A stretch of 64,000 bases of DNA, taken from NCBI GenBank assembly GCA_017849435.1, contig JAFIGY010000009.1, forward strand, positions 744,001 through 808,000, given 5' to 3'. Both the position numbers and the translations under genes were made by a program. The notes under the pieces are model-generated. The model had not been told where the DNA came from, did no database searches, and saw only the letters and a list, made by a program, of their open reading frames with translations. Shown here one piece after another: positions 1-7,500 of this stretch. Position 1 is the first letter of the stretch. Each line of letters begins with the position of its first letter. This DNA comes from Chitinophaga niabensis. Its GTDB lineage: Bacteria > Bacteroidota > Bacteroidia > Chitinophagales > Chitinophagaceae.

Positions 1-1029
1 TACCCCATCTTCTCCAAGTTGGAAGACAACGATTTCCTCCTTTTCTTTTTGAATTGCCAATTTTAACTTGGCTATTTCAGAGTATAGTTCCTTTACTATT
101 TCAAGGAAATCGGATGCTTTACATACTACCAATATATCATCGCAATATCTGCGATATAAAAATCTACCTTGAGATATGCCGCCAATTCTTCGGTCGTAAT
201 CTATCATGTAAATATTGGACAGTACTGCACTTATAGGAGAGCCTTGAGGTATACCTACTGAAGCTTGGTTAATTTTGATAGGGGAAGTAGGATGTGATCG
301 AACTTTTCCTCTAAAATCTTCGATGCTACAAAATCGAGTAAGTTGGCCTTTCTTTAATTGCACCTTTGTTATTGATAAGGTATTAATTAATTCGTCCTTG
401 TCAATATAGGCATACTTTGTCAGAGATTGATATAGCTTGAAATGGTCTTTGGGCAAACGATCCAAAGCAACTGTCTCATTTACATTTAGAGTTTCAAGCC
501 ATTTTTCTTTCAGAATGGTATGTTCTAAATTATCGAAAAATCCTTTTATGTCCAGTGCTATTGCTATACAATCACCTTGATTCTCAATGTATTTGAAGAC
601 ATCTTCTGCAAAATCAATATTACTTTTATTCAAAGATCGGTATGCTAAGACATAATCAGTTAGGCCATACTTCTGTAATACCTGTTCATATTTTTCTTGT
701 AGTGCAGAGGCATAAAATGAATAAACCAGAGAATCAAAATGAGCAGCATAACAAATTGGACGTTCTTTAATTTCCAACTTGCGTTTGTGCCGTTTTTTGT
801 TATTCTTTAGCCTCTTAGTTTTTAGTACTATTCTAATGAAGGGAAGGAAACTGTGGGATTGGATGTTCTCGGGATTAAGAATGAAATTTTTGAATGCCTT
901 TTTTCGGTCAGGGAACCAAACTCTATAGTCCAAGTGCAGGTAACTCTTTTTCTTATACTTCTTAGTATTTACATCGTAGAACTTAAGTTCCTTCTTGCAA
1001 AAGGAATCCCAATAATCTTCGTAATTCAT
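1..1029 (-). CDS. Reverse transcriptase, DRT2 (UG2)-like, C-terminus cut by window edge
   Basis: The minus strand is open from an ATG at 1029 (MNYEDYWDSF) to the window edge, 343 codons without a stop. The translation carries reverse-transcriptase motifs in order: LDIKGFFDNLEH (catalytic Asp of palm motif A), VGIPQGSPISAVLSNIYM (QGSP motif) and YRRYCDDILVV (catalytic YxDD box). Before the palm there is a HLDYRV...SHSFLPFI region, and between the palm motifs a KLYQSLTKYAY stretch, both of which remind me of antiviral Drt2 proteins (defence-associated reverse transcriptase type 2). There is no maturase domain in the visible part, and QGSP argues against a DGR enzyme. The gene is AT-rich compared with most of the window, as expected for acquired defence genes. 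The RT assignment is firm; the DRT2 subgroup is inference from remembered motif spacing. Confidence 0.85.
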   Translation of the reverse strand, partial: MNYEDYWDSFCKKELKFYDVNTKKYKKKSYLHLDYRVWFPDRKKAFKNFILNPENIQSHSFLPFIRIVLKTKRLKNNKKRHKRKLEIKERPICYAAHFDSLVYSFYASALQEKYEQVLQKYGLTDYVLAYRSLNKSNIDFAEDVFKYIENQGDCIAIALDIKGFFDNLEHTILKEKWLETLNVNETVALDRLPKDHFKLYQSLTKYAYIDKDELINTLSITKVQLKKGQLTRFCSIEDFRGKVRSHPTSPIKINQASVGIPQGSPISAVLSNIYMIDYDRRIGGISQGRFLYRRYCDDILVVCKASDFLEIVKELYSEIAKLKLAIQKEKEEIVVFQLGEDGV

Positions 1030-1150
1030 AACGTATGTTTTTCAATACGAACCGCCAGAACCGGGGTGATTCTTTTGTGGCGATTCGTGCAAGTCCTTTC
1101 GGTCAAGCGAAGCATCAGATTACTCTGAGCCATTGAAGCTATATTTCACG
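1030..1150 (-). ncRNA. Candidate structured RNA upstream of the RT, with stop-free frame
   Basis: On the minus strand this gap folds into clear hairpins. TCAGA-GTAA-TCTGA is a 5-bp stem with a GNRA loop, and CC-GAAA-GG is a short GNRA-capped stem. ACGAATCGCCA pairs with TGGCGGTTCGT over 11 bp (one G-U) around a 20-nt loop just before the RT start. One frame is open over the whole gap (39 codons from the TGA at 1146-1148 to a TGA that overlaps the RT start). DRT2 systems place a structured non-coding RNA just upstream of the RT, and part of it is a template free of stops so that concatemeric cDNA encodes Neo. The structure and open frame are seen; that role is inference. The RNA may extend into the 174-aa ORF. 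Confidence 0.4.
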
Positions 1151-1670
1151 CTAAACCCCCGTTGATGAACTTAATGAAAGCACTAGTTTCAGTATTCAAG
1201 CAATTGATGCTCTCCTTGCTACAAGTAATTGCAGCCCATCTCCAAGGGTACTTGGAAATGTTGAAGGAATGCATTATCTTTACAAGATACCTCAACAGTA
1301 ACACTCTTCCCTTTACTCTACTTTTCAGCAAGAAAGGCAGACCTGAGCCATCAAATAATATACCAAACAGCCACAACCGTAATTTTGGCATATAGCCAAG
1401 AGCGTTGTCAGTGACAATTTTGCGCTTTCCCCTAAAAGATTCATATAGCATATTAATTGACACAGTGTATAGGTAAAGCTGACGCATATGGAAAGGTACT
1501 GGTCGCGTTTCTTCTCCTTTATGGTTTTCACATTGCCAACAAAGTACACATACTTGTTTGTGAGCCAAAGGAGAATCCAAGCACATTATGCAAAACAGTT
1601 TGAAGAGTAGCCAGTCCGGGCAACAGCGAGGCTTCTTTGTTGTAACTATTGGTATAATACTATATTTCAT
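1146..1670 (-). CDS. Cys-rich hypothetical protein upstream of the RT (doubtful coding)
   Basis: This is a 174-codon frame in the same direction as the RT, ending about 117 nt before it. It has many cysteines in its first third (RCCPDW, FCIMC, VCVLCWQC) that could form a zinc site, and a basic, aromatic-rich remainder. I recognise no family. It starts from ATG at 1670 with no Shine-Dalgarno, as is usual here. It may be an RT partner protein, or it may be an open stretch that is really part of a long structured RNA, since the stop-free frame continues after its stop in the same phase. Its base composition is AT-rich like the RT. Coding status is uncertain. Confidence 0.4.
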   Translation of the reverse strand: MKYSIIPIVTTKKPRCCPDWLLFKLFCIMCLDSPLAHKQVCVLCWQCENHKGEETRPVPFHMRQLYLYTVSINMLYESFRGKRKIVTDNALGYMPKLRLWLFGILFDGSGLPFLLKSRVKGRVLLLRYLVKIMHSFNISKYPWRWAAITCSKESINCLNTETSAFIKFINGGLA

Positions 1671-1697
1671 TATTTACTGATGGTTTTCTTAGGTGTC

Positions 1698-1726
1698 ATT
1701 ATAGCTAACTGTATATCGATGTGGAA
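1698..1726 (-). promoter_or_regulatory. Possible TATAAT promoter for the RT unit
   Basis: On the minus strand TTCCAC (1721-1726) is followed after 17 nt by a perfect TATAAT (1698-1703), about 28 nt upstream of the 174-aa frame. This is the proteobacterial consensus, not the Bacteroidota one, so it would suit a gene brought in from elsewhere. In AT-rich DNA it may also be chance. Confidence 0.2.
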
Positions 1727-1846
1727 CGATTTCAACCTTTTTGCAGCATAGGTAATATTTTCTTTCTTATAATGAATTTAAGAGGGTATTTAAAATGGAA
1801 CCCTCCATCAGAAAATGAATAATTAATTAATGCAAATTTTTGAGGT

Positions 1847-2167
1847 ATGATACAAATTTCGCAGTTAGAACAAAAAGAAGTAATCAAAGGTTACGTTGCA
1901 AGATTTATTCACACATCTTCTATGACACTTGGATTTTGGGAGGTTGAAAAAGGTGCCGTATTGCCTGTACACAGCCATATTCACGAGCAGGTTACACAAG
2001 TGGAAGAAGGCGAATTTCAATTGACCGTTAACGGGGAAGCAAAGGTTTATACAAAGGGGATGGTGGCTGTAATACCACCCAACACTGAACACGGAGGCGT
2101 TGCACTCACAGACTGCAAACTCTTTGACATATTTAATCCTGTACGGGAAGACTATAAGAATTTATAA
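1847..2167 (+). CDS. Cupin domain protein
   Basis: A 106-aa single-domain cupin. The first cupin motif is seen at residues 36-55, with metal-ligand candidates His42, His44 or His46 and Gln48 (VHSHIHEQ); the second motif follows the PP turn with His82 (PPNTEHGG). Length and motifs fit small cupins of the AraC-N/cupin_2 type, which bind a metal and a small ligand; the substrate cannot be read from the sequence. The start at 1847 leaves a complete fold. It is followed at once by a decayed EamA permease, so the two may once have been one transcription unit. Confidence 0.85.
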   Translation: MIQISQLEQKEVIKGYVARFIHTSSMTLGFWEVEKGAVLPVHSHIHEQVTQVEEGEFQLTVNGEAKVYTKGMVAVIPPNTEHGGVALTDCKLFDIFNPVREDYKNL

Positions 2168-2544
2168 ATGACAAAATACATAGTGATTGTTGCGCTTGGG
2201 GCGTTGAGTTATGGAATGTTATCTTCCTTTGCAAAAATCGCATATGGGCAAGGGTACACAGCTGGGAGATAACCTTTGCACAAGCTGGTATTTCTGCGTA
2301 TACTTATTACCTGTCGGTTGAATACATACCTGCTGCATTTATCATTATAGGAACCATTTTAGCAGGAAATTTGCTGAACGCCAAAGATCTGAATTTTTCC
2401 ATTTCAGGCATTAGCCTGGGAGTAGGTTCGGCTTTACTTTATACGCTATATGTTCTGTTTACAAGCAAGTTGGGCAATGATGTACCTATGTTTGAGAAAA
2501 GCGCATGGATGACGATTGTTTGTGATGTCGCAATCGCCCATTAG
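2168..2544 (+). pseudogene. EamA/DMT-family transporter remnant
   Basis: Translation from ATG at 2168 gives MTKYIVIVALGALSYGMLSS, a typical first EamA helix, and then stops at a TAA after GYTAGR. Moving two bases forward at about 2260 restores the family sequence WEITFAQAGISAYTYYL and continues through SVEYIPAAFIIIGTILAG to a stop at 2542-2544. EamA permeases have ten membrane helices and about 300 residues. Here fewer than half remain, the central part is joined out of order with the usual spacing, and the second EamA half is absent. It is therefore a frameshifted and internally deleted gene. It would have been a drug/metabolite exporter of the inner membrane. Confidence 0.7.
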
Positions 2545-2612
2545 TATTGTCGGTTTTGCCCACCGTGGCATCGGAAACCGCTCGGTACATTTGTGAAACA
2601 AATCATTTAGCT

Positions 2613-3203
2613 ATGCGAAAATTGATTATGAAAATGTCGATGTCGGTCGATGGTTTTGTAAGTGACGCTGAGGGCAAGAGCGATTGGGTCTTCAAAACAG
2701 GGGACAAGGAGTCAGCGGCCTGGAGCGTTGGGGTGATCCGGGAGGCCGGGTTAATTATTATGGGCAGGAAGTCGTTTGAGACCATGGCCCCTTACTGGCC
2801 TACCGCGACCGGGCCGTTTGCCGCACCGATGAACGAGATTCCCAAGGCCCTCTTTACAAGAAAAGGATTTAGAGGCATCGATTCTGTGCATACGACAACT
2901 TCCGAGCAGTCGTCCGCCGCCGCTTCCTGGGCCGGGGCGCGGGTCTTCGATGGCGATCTTGCCGAAGGGATCAGGGAACTCAAAGCCGGGTCAGGAAAAC
3001 CGATCGTAGCATTAGGCGGCGCGGGATTTATGCAGAACCTCATTGCAACGGGTCTCATCGATGAGTACCACCTGGCCATTCATCCCGTTGCATTGGGATC
3101 GGGGCTGCCAATTTTCACCGGTCTTGAAATACCGCTTTACCTGAAGTTAGCGGATGTAAAGACTTTCCCGGGAGGAGTCATAGCAATGACTTACCGCGTG
3201 TAG
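2613..3203 (+). CDS. Dihydrofolate reductase family (RibD C-terminal domain) protein
   Basis: A protein of about 196 aa from the internal ATG at 2613 (MRKLIMKMSMSVDGFVSDAEG). An upstream in-frame ATG at 2547 would add 22 residues that overlap the EamA remnant and do not look like the family, so I prefer 2613. The N-terminal strand with SVDGF, the IIMGRKSFE nucleotide-binding segment and the C-terminal VALGGAGFMQNLIATGLIDEYHL block are standard for RibD_C/DHFR-like reductases. Members use NAD(P)H; the actual substrate is unknown for most single-domain forms. It appears intact although its neighbours on both sides are broken. Confidence 0.85.
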   Translation: MRKLIMKMSMSVDGFVSDAEGKSDWVFKTGDKESAAWSVGVIREAGLIIMGRKSFETMAPYWPTATGPFAAPMNEIPKALFTRKGFRGIDSVHTTTSEQSSAAASWAGARVFDGDLAEGIRELKAGSGKPIVALGGAGFMQNLIATGLIDEYHLAIHPVALGSGLPIFTGLEIPLYLKLADVKTFPGGVIAMTYRV

Positions 3204-3425
3204 GGTTTGAGTGTAATCCCTGCTCAGCCCGCAAGAAGGAGGCCAAAACGAATCCAAACCCGCTTGAAACGCAGTATTCAGGCGGACTTTTTAATTTCCC
3301 ACAACAGGATGATATTGCCGACGATGTCACTTCGTTGAACCTGTGAGCAAACAAAGTTGAACCGCTGACCAAAATCAGATTTTTCATTGTTGATCACCTT
3401 TGTGTTGTCATTAAAAACACAAACA
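3204..3425 (+). other. Intergenic stretch with a possible gene-tail remnant
   Basis: There is no complete gene. One forward frame stays open from inside the end of the previous gene to a TGA at 3344-3346 (reading ...NPNPLETQYSGGLFNFPQQ...) and has no start codon. It could be the C-terminal tail of a lost gene in this decayed patch, but I cannot name a family. Confidence 0.25.
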
Positions 3426-3871
3426 ATGAAAAAAACAGTTCTTATTACCGGGCAACAACCGGAATCGGCAAAGCAACCGCCTTTGCATTCGGTAACAAAG
3501 GTTACAACATAGTATTCACCAGCCGCAATAAAACAAGAGGTGAAGCATTTTCCAAGGAATTACGTGATAAAGAGGTAGAAAATACTTTCCTCGAGCTGGA
3601 TGTCACCAACGAAGAAGCCGTGAAATCTGTAGGAGAAAAAGCCGTTGCGAAATATGGAAAGCCGGATGCTTTGACCAAATTTATGGTCTCAGTTGTCAGC
3701 AATAAAGGACGTGCTGACGCCGGTAAAATGGAAGACTTTTTCGCTGCAGGGTATACCGGATCCAATTTGGTGGATGTGACGATTGCAACAGGCGATAAGA
3801 TCATCAGTAATTATCTGCATAACCTGCCCCGACTTCCCATCGATTTTCCATTGGCGGATGAAATTGCATAA
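3426..3871 (+). pseudogene. Chimeric remnant: SDR N-terminus joined to AhpD-like C-terminus
   Basis: From ATG at 3426 the frame reads MKKTVLIT and then loses one base inside the Rossmann glycine motif at about 3451, ending at a TAG soon after. Restoring that base gives T-GATTGIGKATAFAFGNKGY, the cofactor site of a short-chain dehydrogenase, followed by strand/helix 2-3 (IVFTSRN, LELDVTNEEA). After GKPDAL the same frame changes into KFMVSVVSNKGRADAGKMED and ISNYLHNL, which resembles the C-terminal half of carboxymuconolactone-decarboxylase/AhpD-like proteins. The SDR catalytic Tyr-Lys and the AhpD Cys pair are both missing. A deletion has fused two neighbouring genes. The downstream half keeps a long open frame (3620-3871) but is unlikely to be functional. 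Confidence 0.65.
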
Positions 3872-3914
3872 TTTTCTTTAAGCTGATCGATGGAGGCTTG
3901 AAGAAAATTAATTA

Positions 3915-3955
3915 GGGACAAACCATCATAAGTATGATTTGTCCCTTTTTCTTTT
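3915..3955 (+). terminator. Intrinsic terminator after the chimeric remnant
   Basis: GGGACAAA ... TTTGTCCC with an inner ATCATA/TATGAT stem, followed by TTTTTCTTTT. Long stem and T-run on the plus strand. Confidence 0.8.
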
Positions 3956-4576
3956 CCTGCTATGAAGGATGAATAACCCCCTAACCCGTTAACTTACGTT
4001 TATACATAAACGTTATACTACGTGCGCCTTGAGGGTAAGCATCACCGGATATATTGCTACTGCTGTTTATTTTTTTTTGTTAATTAAAACGGCGTTTGAT
4101 TGTAGATAGCTAAAACATTGTAACTTCGTCAACGCAAATGATTTTCCTTGTGATTGCAAGAATGGCAGCTGATTCTTTAGCTATTTTAAGGCAAGAAGGT
4201 TGTTTTCCTCAAATTTCATAACCAGTGCTCTGCGGTCTGAGTGGTTATTTTCTGTGTATTCAATTTTTTTTGTAAGTAAGTGCATCCTTCCCACAGGGAT
4301 AAGGAGAGACGCTGTTTCATCGTATTGTTTTCAACGTAATTATTGAAGTTCAAAGCAAAATGATCGCCTGATTCAACAACAGGTGCAGAGGGTTTTTTGT
4401 ACAGATCATCCCCACTGCATTTGTTATGACCGCTGCTGTGCCGGCCGGATGAATTCGTATGCCCGTTCCCGTTTATTGTTCACCTCATAAAATCCATGGA
4501 TATGAAACAGACATGAAAGCGCTGATGACCGGATTAGCTGCTTAACACCATTTCAGAACTTAAAAGTAAGTACACC
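3956..4576. other. Long non-coding stretch before the 1,338-aa gene
   Basis: No convincing gene is seen in any frame. It is AT-rich and contains an 18-bp inverted repeat at 3996-4013, listed separately. It presumably holds the promoter of the large gene at 4577, but I cannot place a clear -33/-7 pair. Confidence 0.5.
3996..4013. promoter_or_regulatory. Perfect 18-bp palindrome, possible operator
   Basis: ACGTTTAT-AC-ATAAACGT is a perfect inverted repeat (8-bp arms, 2-bp centre) in the region upstream of the 1,338-aa gene. It has no T-run, so it is not a terminator. The form suits a dimeric regulator, but none is encoded next to it. Confidence 0.3.
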
Positions 4577-7500
4577 ATGAAAACACACTTTGTATCTTAT
4601 CACCCTCAAAAGCAATGGCCCAAGGGGCGCCGTGTAGCAACATCGCTGCACCGGGCGGAAGCATATGACTTTGTTATTCATCCCATGCAGGCTTACGGCA
4701 ATCCTGATATTCCAATTCCCAAACAGGTTGTATTACTGCGGCCCGATCCTGCGGATCCTTCGGGGGACCAGCTTTTCCTGGATCACCTGCCTGTTCCGCG
4801 TGAAGCCTGGCGTTATGATCCGCTGGATCATATCATTAGCTGGAAAGGCGCTTTCGGGGGAGGGCATCTTCATTTTGACCGGCAGGGCCGTTCCATTACC
4901 GGGAACATTGGCGCAGAGCACACTTCCTGCTCCGTACAGGGAGGCGCAAGAGCGCAATTCAACTGTGCTGTGGCTCTTGATTGTGGTGTAAGTTATGATA
5001 CTTCCGGTGGTAAAGTGATCGGCTTGTTATGGAACCCTTCTTCCGCTGCCTGGCAGAATGCCAGGTGGGTACAGAACCGGTTATTACTGACCTATACTGT
5101 TACCAACGGAAGTCCGATAGAACCGCCTTCCTTTACCTTTGAATTTGAGGACCTGGAAACGGGTGCAATCCCATGGGATCCCGGTATGGGTTCTTTTGCT
5201 GCAAGCATGCAACTGGGTATGAATAACGGGAAAATGGTATGGGATCTCACTTTTAAATCGAGTATCGAGCCGCCGGATGACGACGGGACTACAAAACCGA
5301 CGGGGCCGGACAGCGTATATCCGTACTGGTTATCCGCGATAGAAGATGCTGCCGCGGCTACGATCAACGGTGCTATGGAAATTGATCAAACTGCTCCCAA
5401 CGGCACGCTCATCGGTATGCAGGGAGTACGCAGTAACGGAATGATCAAAGGCTATTATCGCACTTCTGCCGATGCGGCGCCTTTTGGTATATTTAACGGA
5501 CGCCTGGTGATTGGCGGGCAGCCCGTCGCTCGCTCTTTTGTATCAGGGAATGAACTGAACTGGAAAGGTCTTTCCGCTGCTTATCAGAAGAAAACAGGTT
5601 TGCCGGAGACCGGCAGGCTGCAGTTTGTGAAAGATGGTTCCGTTGGAAATCACCCGGCAGGGATAAAAGCCCGGCGTTTGAGCGGGGACACTGCTTTATA
5701 TGCCATTGACGAACATAAAGAGCTGCATCCTGTTGTTCATCCGCAGGTTGTTGCCATGAAGCAGTCATTAGCGGACGGCAGCCTGAGTATATACGGTCTG
5801 CTGGCGATGAACCCTTTTGTACAACAGAACGGGCAATGGGGAGATGCTGTACAGGCAGCCGTGACCGGCAACCTGAGTGATATCATGAACAGTTGCATTC
5901 CGTCTGACCTCTGGGGGTTATTGTTCCCGGGGATGACTCAGCCTGCCCTGACCGGAGAACTGGCGGTGGTTGCCAATTCTCCTGTTCCCGGTGTAAGCGA
6001 CCCCAAAGCCTGGTATTCCACACTGTCCACAGCAGTGCTCAGCCAGGGACTGGCCAATGGCTCTGACCAATACTGTAAGAACCTGAATGGGCCAAGGGCG
6101 GGAGAATGGTTGAAGCAACAGGTGAGTACATCCAAAGTATACTACGCCCATGGGCAATTACTATTCCAGTACAACTGGCAACAGCGTTTCCCCACCACCG
6201 CTGAATACCTGACAGATCAGATCAATAATGCGGGTACATATGCCACTACGATAGATGCACAGGTACAATCGTCTATTCAGGACATACGGGCTAATGTAGT
6301 GGCTGATCCTGCTTCAGAGCCGGATATGATCCCCAAACTGATCGCCGAGGTGCAGGCAGTGGGGCAATATGCGAAAACCAATAAGCTCTACTGGGCATTT
6401 GCTTACTACACCTATAACACAGCACCGGCCATATTGGCCAATATTGCGCTGCAGATGGGTATCAACACTGGTTCCAGTGACGGCACCACTTTATCACGCC
6501 TGTTCCAGCAAAATGTATCGGTGCTGACCGCGTTGGATCCTTCCGGGTATTTTGCGCAGCAGTATACCAATACCATCAACATTTTTCTGACTACCAATAT
6601 CCTGCCGAGCATGTTCGGTTTCCTGCAGGATGCCAGCAGCTTCGATCTTATAAAGGCGTATCTGCAGGAGTTCGTCAACAACAACATCAACAGCGAGGAT
6701 AAACAGATCGCACAGGCTGCCGCTCAGGTACAACAAATCCTGTCAGAAAGCGATGCGGATGAAATACTGCACAATTCTATAACCGCATTGCAATCCTTCT
6801 CGCAGGCGATCAATGATGCAATGGCCTTTCCTTTGGTGGCCAACCGGTTCGTGAAATGGTTCTCTGATACATATCCAAAGTTCAGTACCGCTGCCAGTGT
6901 TTTTGGCGGGCTGTTCATGGCCGGTGTAGGCGGTCTTGCGATCTTTAACCTCTTCTCACAATTCAAGTCATGGGATAAGCTGAACAATAAGGAAAAGGCG
7001 CAACTTATAACAGACACTACACAGCTGGGATTGCAGATCATATCAGCTATTGTGAAACGGGGTATAAGGGTATATGCCATTTTTAATGTGGACGGGATGA
7101 GCCGCTTCCAGCGGGTAGCCGCCATTAACAGGATCATTGCTACGGGCGAAGCAGAGAGCCTGGATACAGGACTGATGCGGATAGGCAATACCACGGCGCG
7201 CTGGCTGGGTGGCACAGAAGGCAGTGTAGCCAGAATTGCGGCTGCCAACGAAGGACTGGAAACGGCCGCTTTGCTGAACGGCGCTTCGGCGGGAGCAGAA
7301 GAAGCCGGATGGGTGGCAAAGGTACTCGGTAAAAACCTCGATGAATTCATCGCTACCCGCATTGGCCCTATATTTATACTGGCCGGTATTGGTTTTAGCC
7401 TTTATTCCATCATCACCGGTGATTCGGGCGTTGCACTGGCATCTGATATCGTCAATATTGTCGGGGGAGCATTGATGCTCTTTGCTACTATTGGCGAATG

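Follow-up and report, generated by a model that had tools for sequence, protein, structure and literature searches.

The closest described systems are the DRT2 (UG2) reverse transcriptases, among which that of Klebsiella pneumoniae has been solved (PDB 9c0i). In the passages of PMC11100668 and PMC12039810 that deal with its architecture, the DRT2 ncRNA is encoded upstream of the reverse transcriptase (RT) on the same strand and carries its template 5' of a large scaffold, and the cDNA and the neo gene belong to the opposite strand. ACA motifs bound the template, and the promoter elements TTGACA and TATAAT meet across the junction between repeats, as described in the same passages. Repeat units inferred for 42 close homologues, according to the corresponding section of PMC12039810, are all divisible by three and mostly 117 nt long, that of Klebsiella having 120 nt. 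Neo is described as harder to annotate in divergent clades, and alternative mechanisms are suggested there, in a passage of PMC11100668, the main text of which does not contain the string 'Bacteroid'. A literature search by title and the start of the abstract, in a scope that takes in few subscription papers, returned no report on DRT2 or Neo with a Bacteroidota promoter.

The locus considered here lies at the beginning of a stretch of 64,000 nucleotides from Chitinophaga niabensis (Bacteroidota), referred to below as the window. The RT with QGSP and YCDD motifs that a first-pass annotation had seen in the letters is present and is cut at the window edge.

1-1029, minus strand: DRT2 (UG2) reverse transcriptase, first 343 of 471 codons (NCBIfam, PADLOC, PDB chains, tree)

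The whole gene (L002:7614-9029, minus strand, in a genome of 5.0 Mb) is intact over 471 codons and encodes a protein of 471 amino acids. RVT_1 is the only Pfam family above cut-off in the first 343 amino acids, and for the whole protein NCBIfam and PADLOC yield RT families only, among the matches listed. The protein scores 461.8 bits with the NCBIfam family Drt2 (NF041746, cut-off 390), its best PADLOC family is Drt2 (E=4.2e-141), and its best PDB matches are chains from the solved structures of Klebsiella DRT2 (E between 1.1e-86 and 1.6e-84, with 9c0i at 1.1e-86). A maximum-likelihood tree of 39 RTs places it with L128, L033, L114 and L116, with support of 81/76 for the five and 95/90 without L128. 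This group is part of a wider one of 16 members that includes Pseudomonadota DRT2s, one Thermodesulfobacteriota and two cyanobacteria, and a second, larger Bacteroidota clade comprises 23 rows of the tree. Identity to any relative found is at most 44%. By computed family, the RT of this locus is, at the level of sequence, a DRT2 (UG2) enzyme, as had been proposed earlier; compared with the DRT/UG profiles it falls inside UG2. The larger Bacteroidota UG2 clade differs in this respect, since 0 of 397 genomes have a match over the NCBIfam Drt2 cut-off, which the present RT exceeds.

Directly upstream of the RT, on the RT strand, the predicted fold and a recurring hairpin point to a structured ncRNA, in likeness to the Klebsiella system. 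Its predicted elements are as follows.

1030-1130, minus strand: probable 3' scaffold of the DRT2 ncRNA, ends approximate (fold of 1030-1150; contains the recurring hairpin)
1047-1088, minus strand: RT-proximal hairpin, outer stem of 11 bp, at a distance of 17 nt from the RT start codon (eight other DRT2 loci; shuffles)
1115-1128, minus strand: 5-bp hairpin with a GUAA loop (by itself not beyond chance)
1275-1298, minus strand: possible 5' handle, consisting of the hairpin TATCTT-GTA-AAGATA (1275-1289) and CTGTTGAGG (1290-1298) (by eye, letters checked)

The predicted fold of the 121-nt segment 1030-1150 (minus strand) has an energy of -35.2 kcal/mol, the shuffles averaging -24.9 (z -2.96), and 0 of 200 dinucleotide shuffles fold as well. 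The 11-bp hairpin of the first-pass annotation was found within it, and its energy is reached by 3 of 300 shuffles. Computation shows this hairpin to recur: the same design, with an outer stem of 10-15 bp ending 17-26 nt before the RT start, is present in L033, L128, L114, L115, L034, L039, L152 and L153, the copy in L115 being branched inside. It is thus shared with Pseudomonas (L034, L039) and Photobacterium (L153) DRT2s, unlike that of Psychrobacter (L154), and it was likewise not found in L116, L129 and L150. In the other Bacteroidota clade, which differs from the present locus in this respect too, 0 of the 22 loci tested contain a hairpin that reaches 10 outer pairs and -16 kcal/mol. Singly, three of the copies are weak against their own shuffles (L114 30/300, L152 14/300, L039 11/300). 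When base-pair changes were tallied by script across eight loci, the present one included and L115 left out, 80 of 80 outer pairs were kept despite differing letters, and arms swapped between loci paired at 4.2 of 10 positions on average, a figure that alone overstates the case because the hairpins were found by a hairpin search. More weight lies on the shared position and on the lack of the hairpin in the other clade. L034 and L039, whose upstream regions are about 80% identical, show changes on both sides of several hairpin pairs. By analogy, the RT-proximal hairpin is perhaps the 'tower' of the cryo-EM ncRNA.

Two GNRA-capped hairpins had also been described, and one of them holds. The 5-bp hairpin with the GUAA loop is situated 99 nt before the RT start here and 112 nt before it in L033 and L039, and a GNRA hairpin of at least 4 bp is present in 27 of 300 shuffles of the upstream 180 nt of this locus; the other, CC-GAAA-GG (1095-1102), has a stem of just 2 bp in the fold, with one isolated pair beyond it. 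In the possible 5' handle, CTGTTGAGG (1290-1298) could pair by eye with CTTCAATGG (1130-1138) around the template; the best model fold draws other pairs. The 9-mer CTGTTGAGG occurs identically in the present locus and the distant DRT2 loci L118 and L130, lying 269, 295 and 297 nt upstream of the respective RT starts. It is perhaps part of an ncRNA 5' handle, or perhaps a chance match, and was not adopted as evidence because nearer relatives are without it.

Since the published ncRNA is on the RT strand, with its template 5' of the scaffold and neo on the opposite strand, the scaffold is expected beside the RT and neo on the plus strand. A plausible Neo of this locus lies further upstream, on the plus strand at about 1135-1275, where the following candidates were found.

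1135-1275, plus strand: candidate neo repeat unit of 141 nt, with CATT at 1131-1134 and 1272-1275 (unit scan; template on the minus strand)
1138-1269, plus strand: alternative candidate neo unit of 132 nt, with GAA at 1135-1137 and 1267-1269 (unit scan)
1165-1275, plus strand: candidate Neo frame, start and first 37 codons (open frame, hydrophobicity)
1140-1147, plus strand: candidate -7 box TATATTTC (consensus TAnnTTTG), 17 nt before the ATG (unit scan; not specific for the present locus alone)
1133-1138, plus strand: TTGAAG, the longest repeat at the template ends, with its other copy at 1261-1266 (implies a 128-nt unit, out of frame)

Plus-strand frame 1 is open over 1129-1392 with an ATG at 1165, a length that is unremarkable (295 of 2000 shuffles). 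The unit scan looked for 3-nt end repeats, a unit length that is a multiple of 3, an antisense frame without stops across the junction, a downstream ATG and a junction promoter. At the present locus it returned TTG-17-TATATTTC with a unit of 141 or 132 nt, the candidate -33 TTG coming from the preceding repeat at 1261-1263 or 1252-1254, respectively. This result is equalled in 30 of 3000 shuffles, which gives the antisense in-frame unit statistical support by computation. The candidate Neo from ATG 1165, MNLMKALVSVFKQLMLSLLQVIAAHLQGYLEMLKECI, is 62% hydrophobic and free of proline, and its hydrophobicity is matched by 7 of 3000 shuffled open frames. Such a product fits the published helical Neo, a fit that is not proof. 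The sense strand of the locus also yields a unit (11 of 200 shuffles). At this locus alone, several decoy promoter motifs do about as well as the true one, so that the case for the promoter of the locus depends on the family pattern.

An antisense unit, in frame and without stops, that lies upstream of the scaffold is a candidate feature shared with Klebsiella, and the two differ in three respects. The candidate unit has 132 or 141 nt instead of 120; no in-frame stop-free unit of 90-159 nt bounded by TGT/ACA was found in the 480 nt upstream of the RT; and the sigma-70 junction promoter is not beyond chance, its best score being reached in 21 of 200 shuffles.

Bacteroidota promoters have a TTG at -33, separated by 17-23 nt from the -7 box. 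In two passages of PMC9723704, TAnnTTTG is given as the -7 box of the housekeeping sigma factor in Bacteroidota. In the comparison across DRT2 loci, a locus was taken as positive for a promoter at no more than 3 of 200 shuffles, a threshold chosen after the first 32 counts and then kept for the 25 later loci. Excluded from the first set were the near-duplicates L035, L137, L151 and L038, loci with the RT at a contig end (L124, L126), partial matches (L012, L013) and second copies of loci already included (L003-L005, L010 and L011 among them); L170 and L174 were left out of the later set as their genomes were already used. L039 entered the first promoter count with a wrong RT start, the corrected start being used in the hairpin comparison.

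Units with a Bacteroidota promoter were found on the antisense strand in 12 of 32 Bacteroidota DRT2 loci of the first set and on the sense strand in 2 of 32; the later loci gave 12/25 and 0/25. The later loci are not an independent sample, as 11 of their 12 positives share upstream-DNA similarity groups with first-set loci, and the 8 later loci outside these groups include 1 positive (L160). When the 57 loci are collapsed into 35 upstream-similarity groups, 12 contain an antisense positive and 2 a sense positive. Sigma-70 promoters were counted in 3/32 and 8/25 loci on the antisense strand and in 1/32 and 0/25 on the sense strand. Six non-Bacteroidota DRT2 loci gave 0/6 for the Bacteroidota promoter and 3/6 for sigma-70. 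RT loci with weak Drt2-profile matches, presumed to be other RTs (18 of the 19 loci L014-L032), gave 0/18 on either strand for the Bacteroidota promoter, the only one scanned in this set.

Decoy motifs were scored over the 57 loci with 100 shuffles each, a positive being a locus with at most 1/100. The true motif is positive in 20/57 loci (9/32 of the first set), eight versions with the -7 box permuted or replaced in 3-7/57 (1-3/32), and two with the -33 element alone permuted in 16/57 and 12/57. The -7 box near the repeat start is therefore specific, and the -33 element is not separately supported. The distance from the -7 box to the ATG is most commonly 15 nt (6 of 24, range 6-39) and is 17 nt in the present locus. 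The related loci L118 and L157 share a 120-nt unit and the end repeat GAAAT. Among the tree neighbours of the present RT, L033 and L114 lack any unit in the scan, and no unit in L116 exceeds chance.

The larger Bacteroidota UG2 clade resembles the present locus in that many of its loci have antisense in-frame units with the Bacteroidota -7 box before the ATG. The DRT2s of Pseudomonas (L034/L035/L039), Photobacterium (L153) and Psychrobacter (L154) are alike in RT group and in antisense units with hydrophobic products, and unlike in possessing TTGACA-17-TATAAT-like junction promoters instead of the Bacteroidota box. By scan, the sigma-70 junctions of L034, L153 and L154 are found at 0-1/200 shuffles, and that of L039 is perfect; L152 (Thermodesulfobacteriota, DRT2 by annotation) fails the unit scan. 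Units proposed by the scan in Pseudomonadota may also have ends other than ACA (Pseudomonas, 132 nt, TTG; Photobacterium, 111 nt, ATCT), and the candidate unit of the Psychrobacter DRT2 keeps ACA, inside ACATA.

The locus is likely to be a DRT2 anti-phage system of a Bacteroidota genome, in which a minus-strand ncRNA would serve as template and a stop-free Neo would be encoded antisense to it on the concatemer. The expression of the ncRNA, template jumping, second-strand synthesis, the translation of Neo, its toxicity and the defence itself are proposed by analogy with the published Klebsiella system. The minus strand upstream of the RT would be transcribed as a structured ncRNA, with its 3' part at about 1130-1030, and the RT would hold this ncRNA by the 3' scaffold. 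On infection, the RT would copy a template of about 130-140 nt (about 1135-1275) repeatedly, jumping between short end repeats. The resulting double-stranded concatemer would carry a plus-strand promoter with the Bacteroidota -7 box and a stop-free frame, and the product, a hydrophobic and probably helical repeat protein, would halt the cell. The earlier proposal of a diverged Bacteroidota DRT2 with its own Neo-like repeat is plausible in outline; the repeat had been assigned to the wrong strand and to the scaffold side of the template.

The family pattern suggests, from sequence, that DRT2 works in Bacteroidota with another promoter. It is possible, at somewhat less than an even chance, that Bacteroidota DRT2s keep the mechanism of making a gene from RNA with the switch re-coded, that is, with template ends other than ACA and a promoter read by the Bacteroidota housekeeping sigma factor; at the present locus, the concatemer may even encode short ORFs coupled in a chain rather than a single endless one. 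If true, this would explain the difficulty of annotating Neo in divergent clades: a search tuned to ACA and to TTGACA/TATAAT would miss a Bacteroidota neo because its promoter and jump motif differ. The scans provide concrete Neo candidates for Bacteroidota DRT2s, and they lead to the prediction that, on account of its promoter, the neo of such systems may not be expressed in E. coli. In this manner, a gene for an effector that comes into being only through reverse transcription could adapt to the transcription machinery of another host.

Three other readings keep the DRT2 RT. It is unlikely that the RT and ncRNA are present with a template that has decayed or with a cDNA product that does not encode Neo. 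The ambiguous jump site, the lack of a detectable unit in the tree neighbours L033 and L114, and a promoter that is not specific on its own would all agree with such a loss, against which stand an RT intact over 471 codons, an intact scaffold hairpin and a hydrophobic antisense frame where one is expected. Still less probable is a series of tandem coupled short ORFs, in which the RT would jump at TTGAAG to give a 128-nt unit, and ORFs of 42 amino acids, each with a TGA overlapping the next ATG (TGATG), would encode a chain of small proteins. TTGAAG is, at 6 nt, the longest repeat spanning the template, and with the 128-nt unit the ORF from ATG 1165 stops exactly at the TGATG of the next copy. 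The related loci L118 and L157, however, also combine 7-nt end repeats that break the frame with shorter ones, of 5 and 6 nt, that keep it; of 24 predicted neo starts, no more than 2 come after a TGATG, and by inspection the 128-nt junction has no TTG 17-23 nt before the -7 box; the published units of the 42 homologues, in the section of PMC12039810 cited above, are without exception divisible by three.

The third places the Neo repeat in the 117 nt directly before the RT, on the sense strand. It has next to nothing in its favour beyond a frame that is indeed open for 39 codons (between stops at 1146 and 1026, minus strand): when the 117 nt are shuffled, the frame stays fully open in 773 of 2000 cases, it is open in just 4 of 11 DRT2 loci checked, the present one included, the segment is occupied by the recurring hairpin, and strand and side of the template are wrong as judged by the published system. 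The 39-codon open frame is, as computed, a chance occurrence, a possibility that the first-pass annotation had itself raised, and the 117 nt are probably the scaffold of the predicted DRT2 ncRNA and not a Neo template. Conservation separates the two features that had been seen there: among loci of at most 44% RT identity, none closer having been found, the main hairpin is kept and the open frame is not.

Returning to the favoured reading of the locus as a DRT2 system with a minus-strand ncRNA, the ncRNA strand also contains an open frame of 175 codons (1146-1670, minus strand) that spans the presumed template and the 5' part, and its length is reached by 1 of 2000 shuffles of the intergenic stretch. 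As a gene it was not adopted: it matches no family in PADLOC, Pfam, NCBIfam or PHROGs, it has no relative in plasmids (E up to 1) or viral contigs, and codon-position bias is absent. Nothing beyond chance was found for a promoter of the ncRNA itself, Rfam gave no match up to E=1 in window 1-4600, and the ncRNA stretch has nothing below E=4 in plasmid DNA, among the matches listed.

The G+C content is 33-43% from about 6.2 to 10.5 kb of L002 (in the window, to about 2.5 kb), compared with 47-54% around it. This AT-rich stretch (L002:6144-10500) starts beside a tRNA-Asp gene (L002:6144-6218), contains the DRT2 gene and a PDC-S32-like gene, and is probably a small defence island that was acquired; when both flanks were compared by short matches, the tRNA end was not found repeated. 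The PDC-S32-like gene (280 amino acids, L002:6736-7578, minus strand) is located outside the window, 35 nt past the RT gene, and its protein matches PADLOC PDC-S32 at E=3e-12 and phrog_20667 at E=3e-60. Its plasmid relatives, among the matches listed, are annotated as hypothetical proteins, and no relative was found in the other DRT2 loci, many of which span only 1.5 kb past the RT. On the plus strand of the window, two frames that appear broken by eye (2168-2545 and 3426-3871) are presumably membrane-transporter-like and short-chain-dehydrogenase-like fragments. In its gene content the genome is Bacteroidota, with 61 SusD and 18 secretion-tail (PF18962) matches over cut-off, families that among 14 control genomes are found only in Bacteroides.
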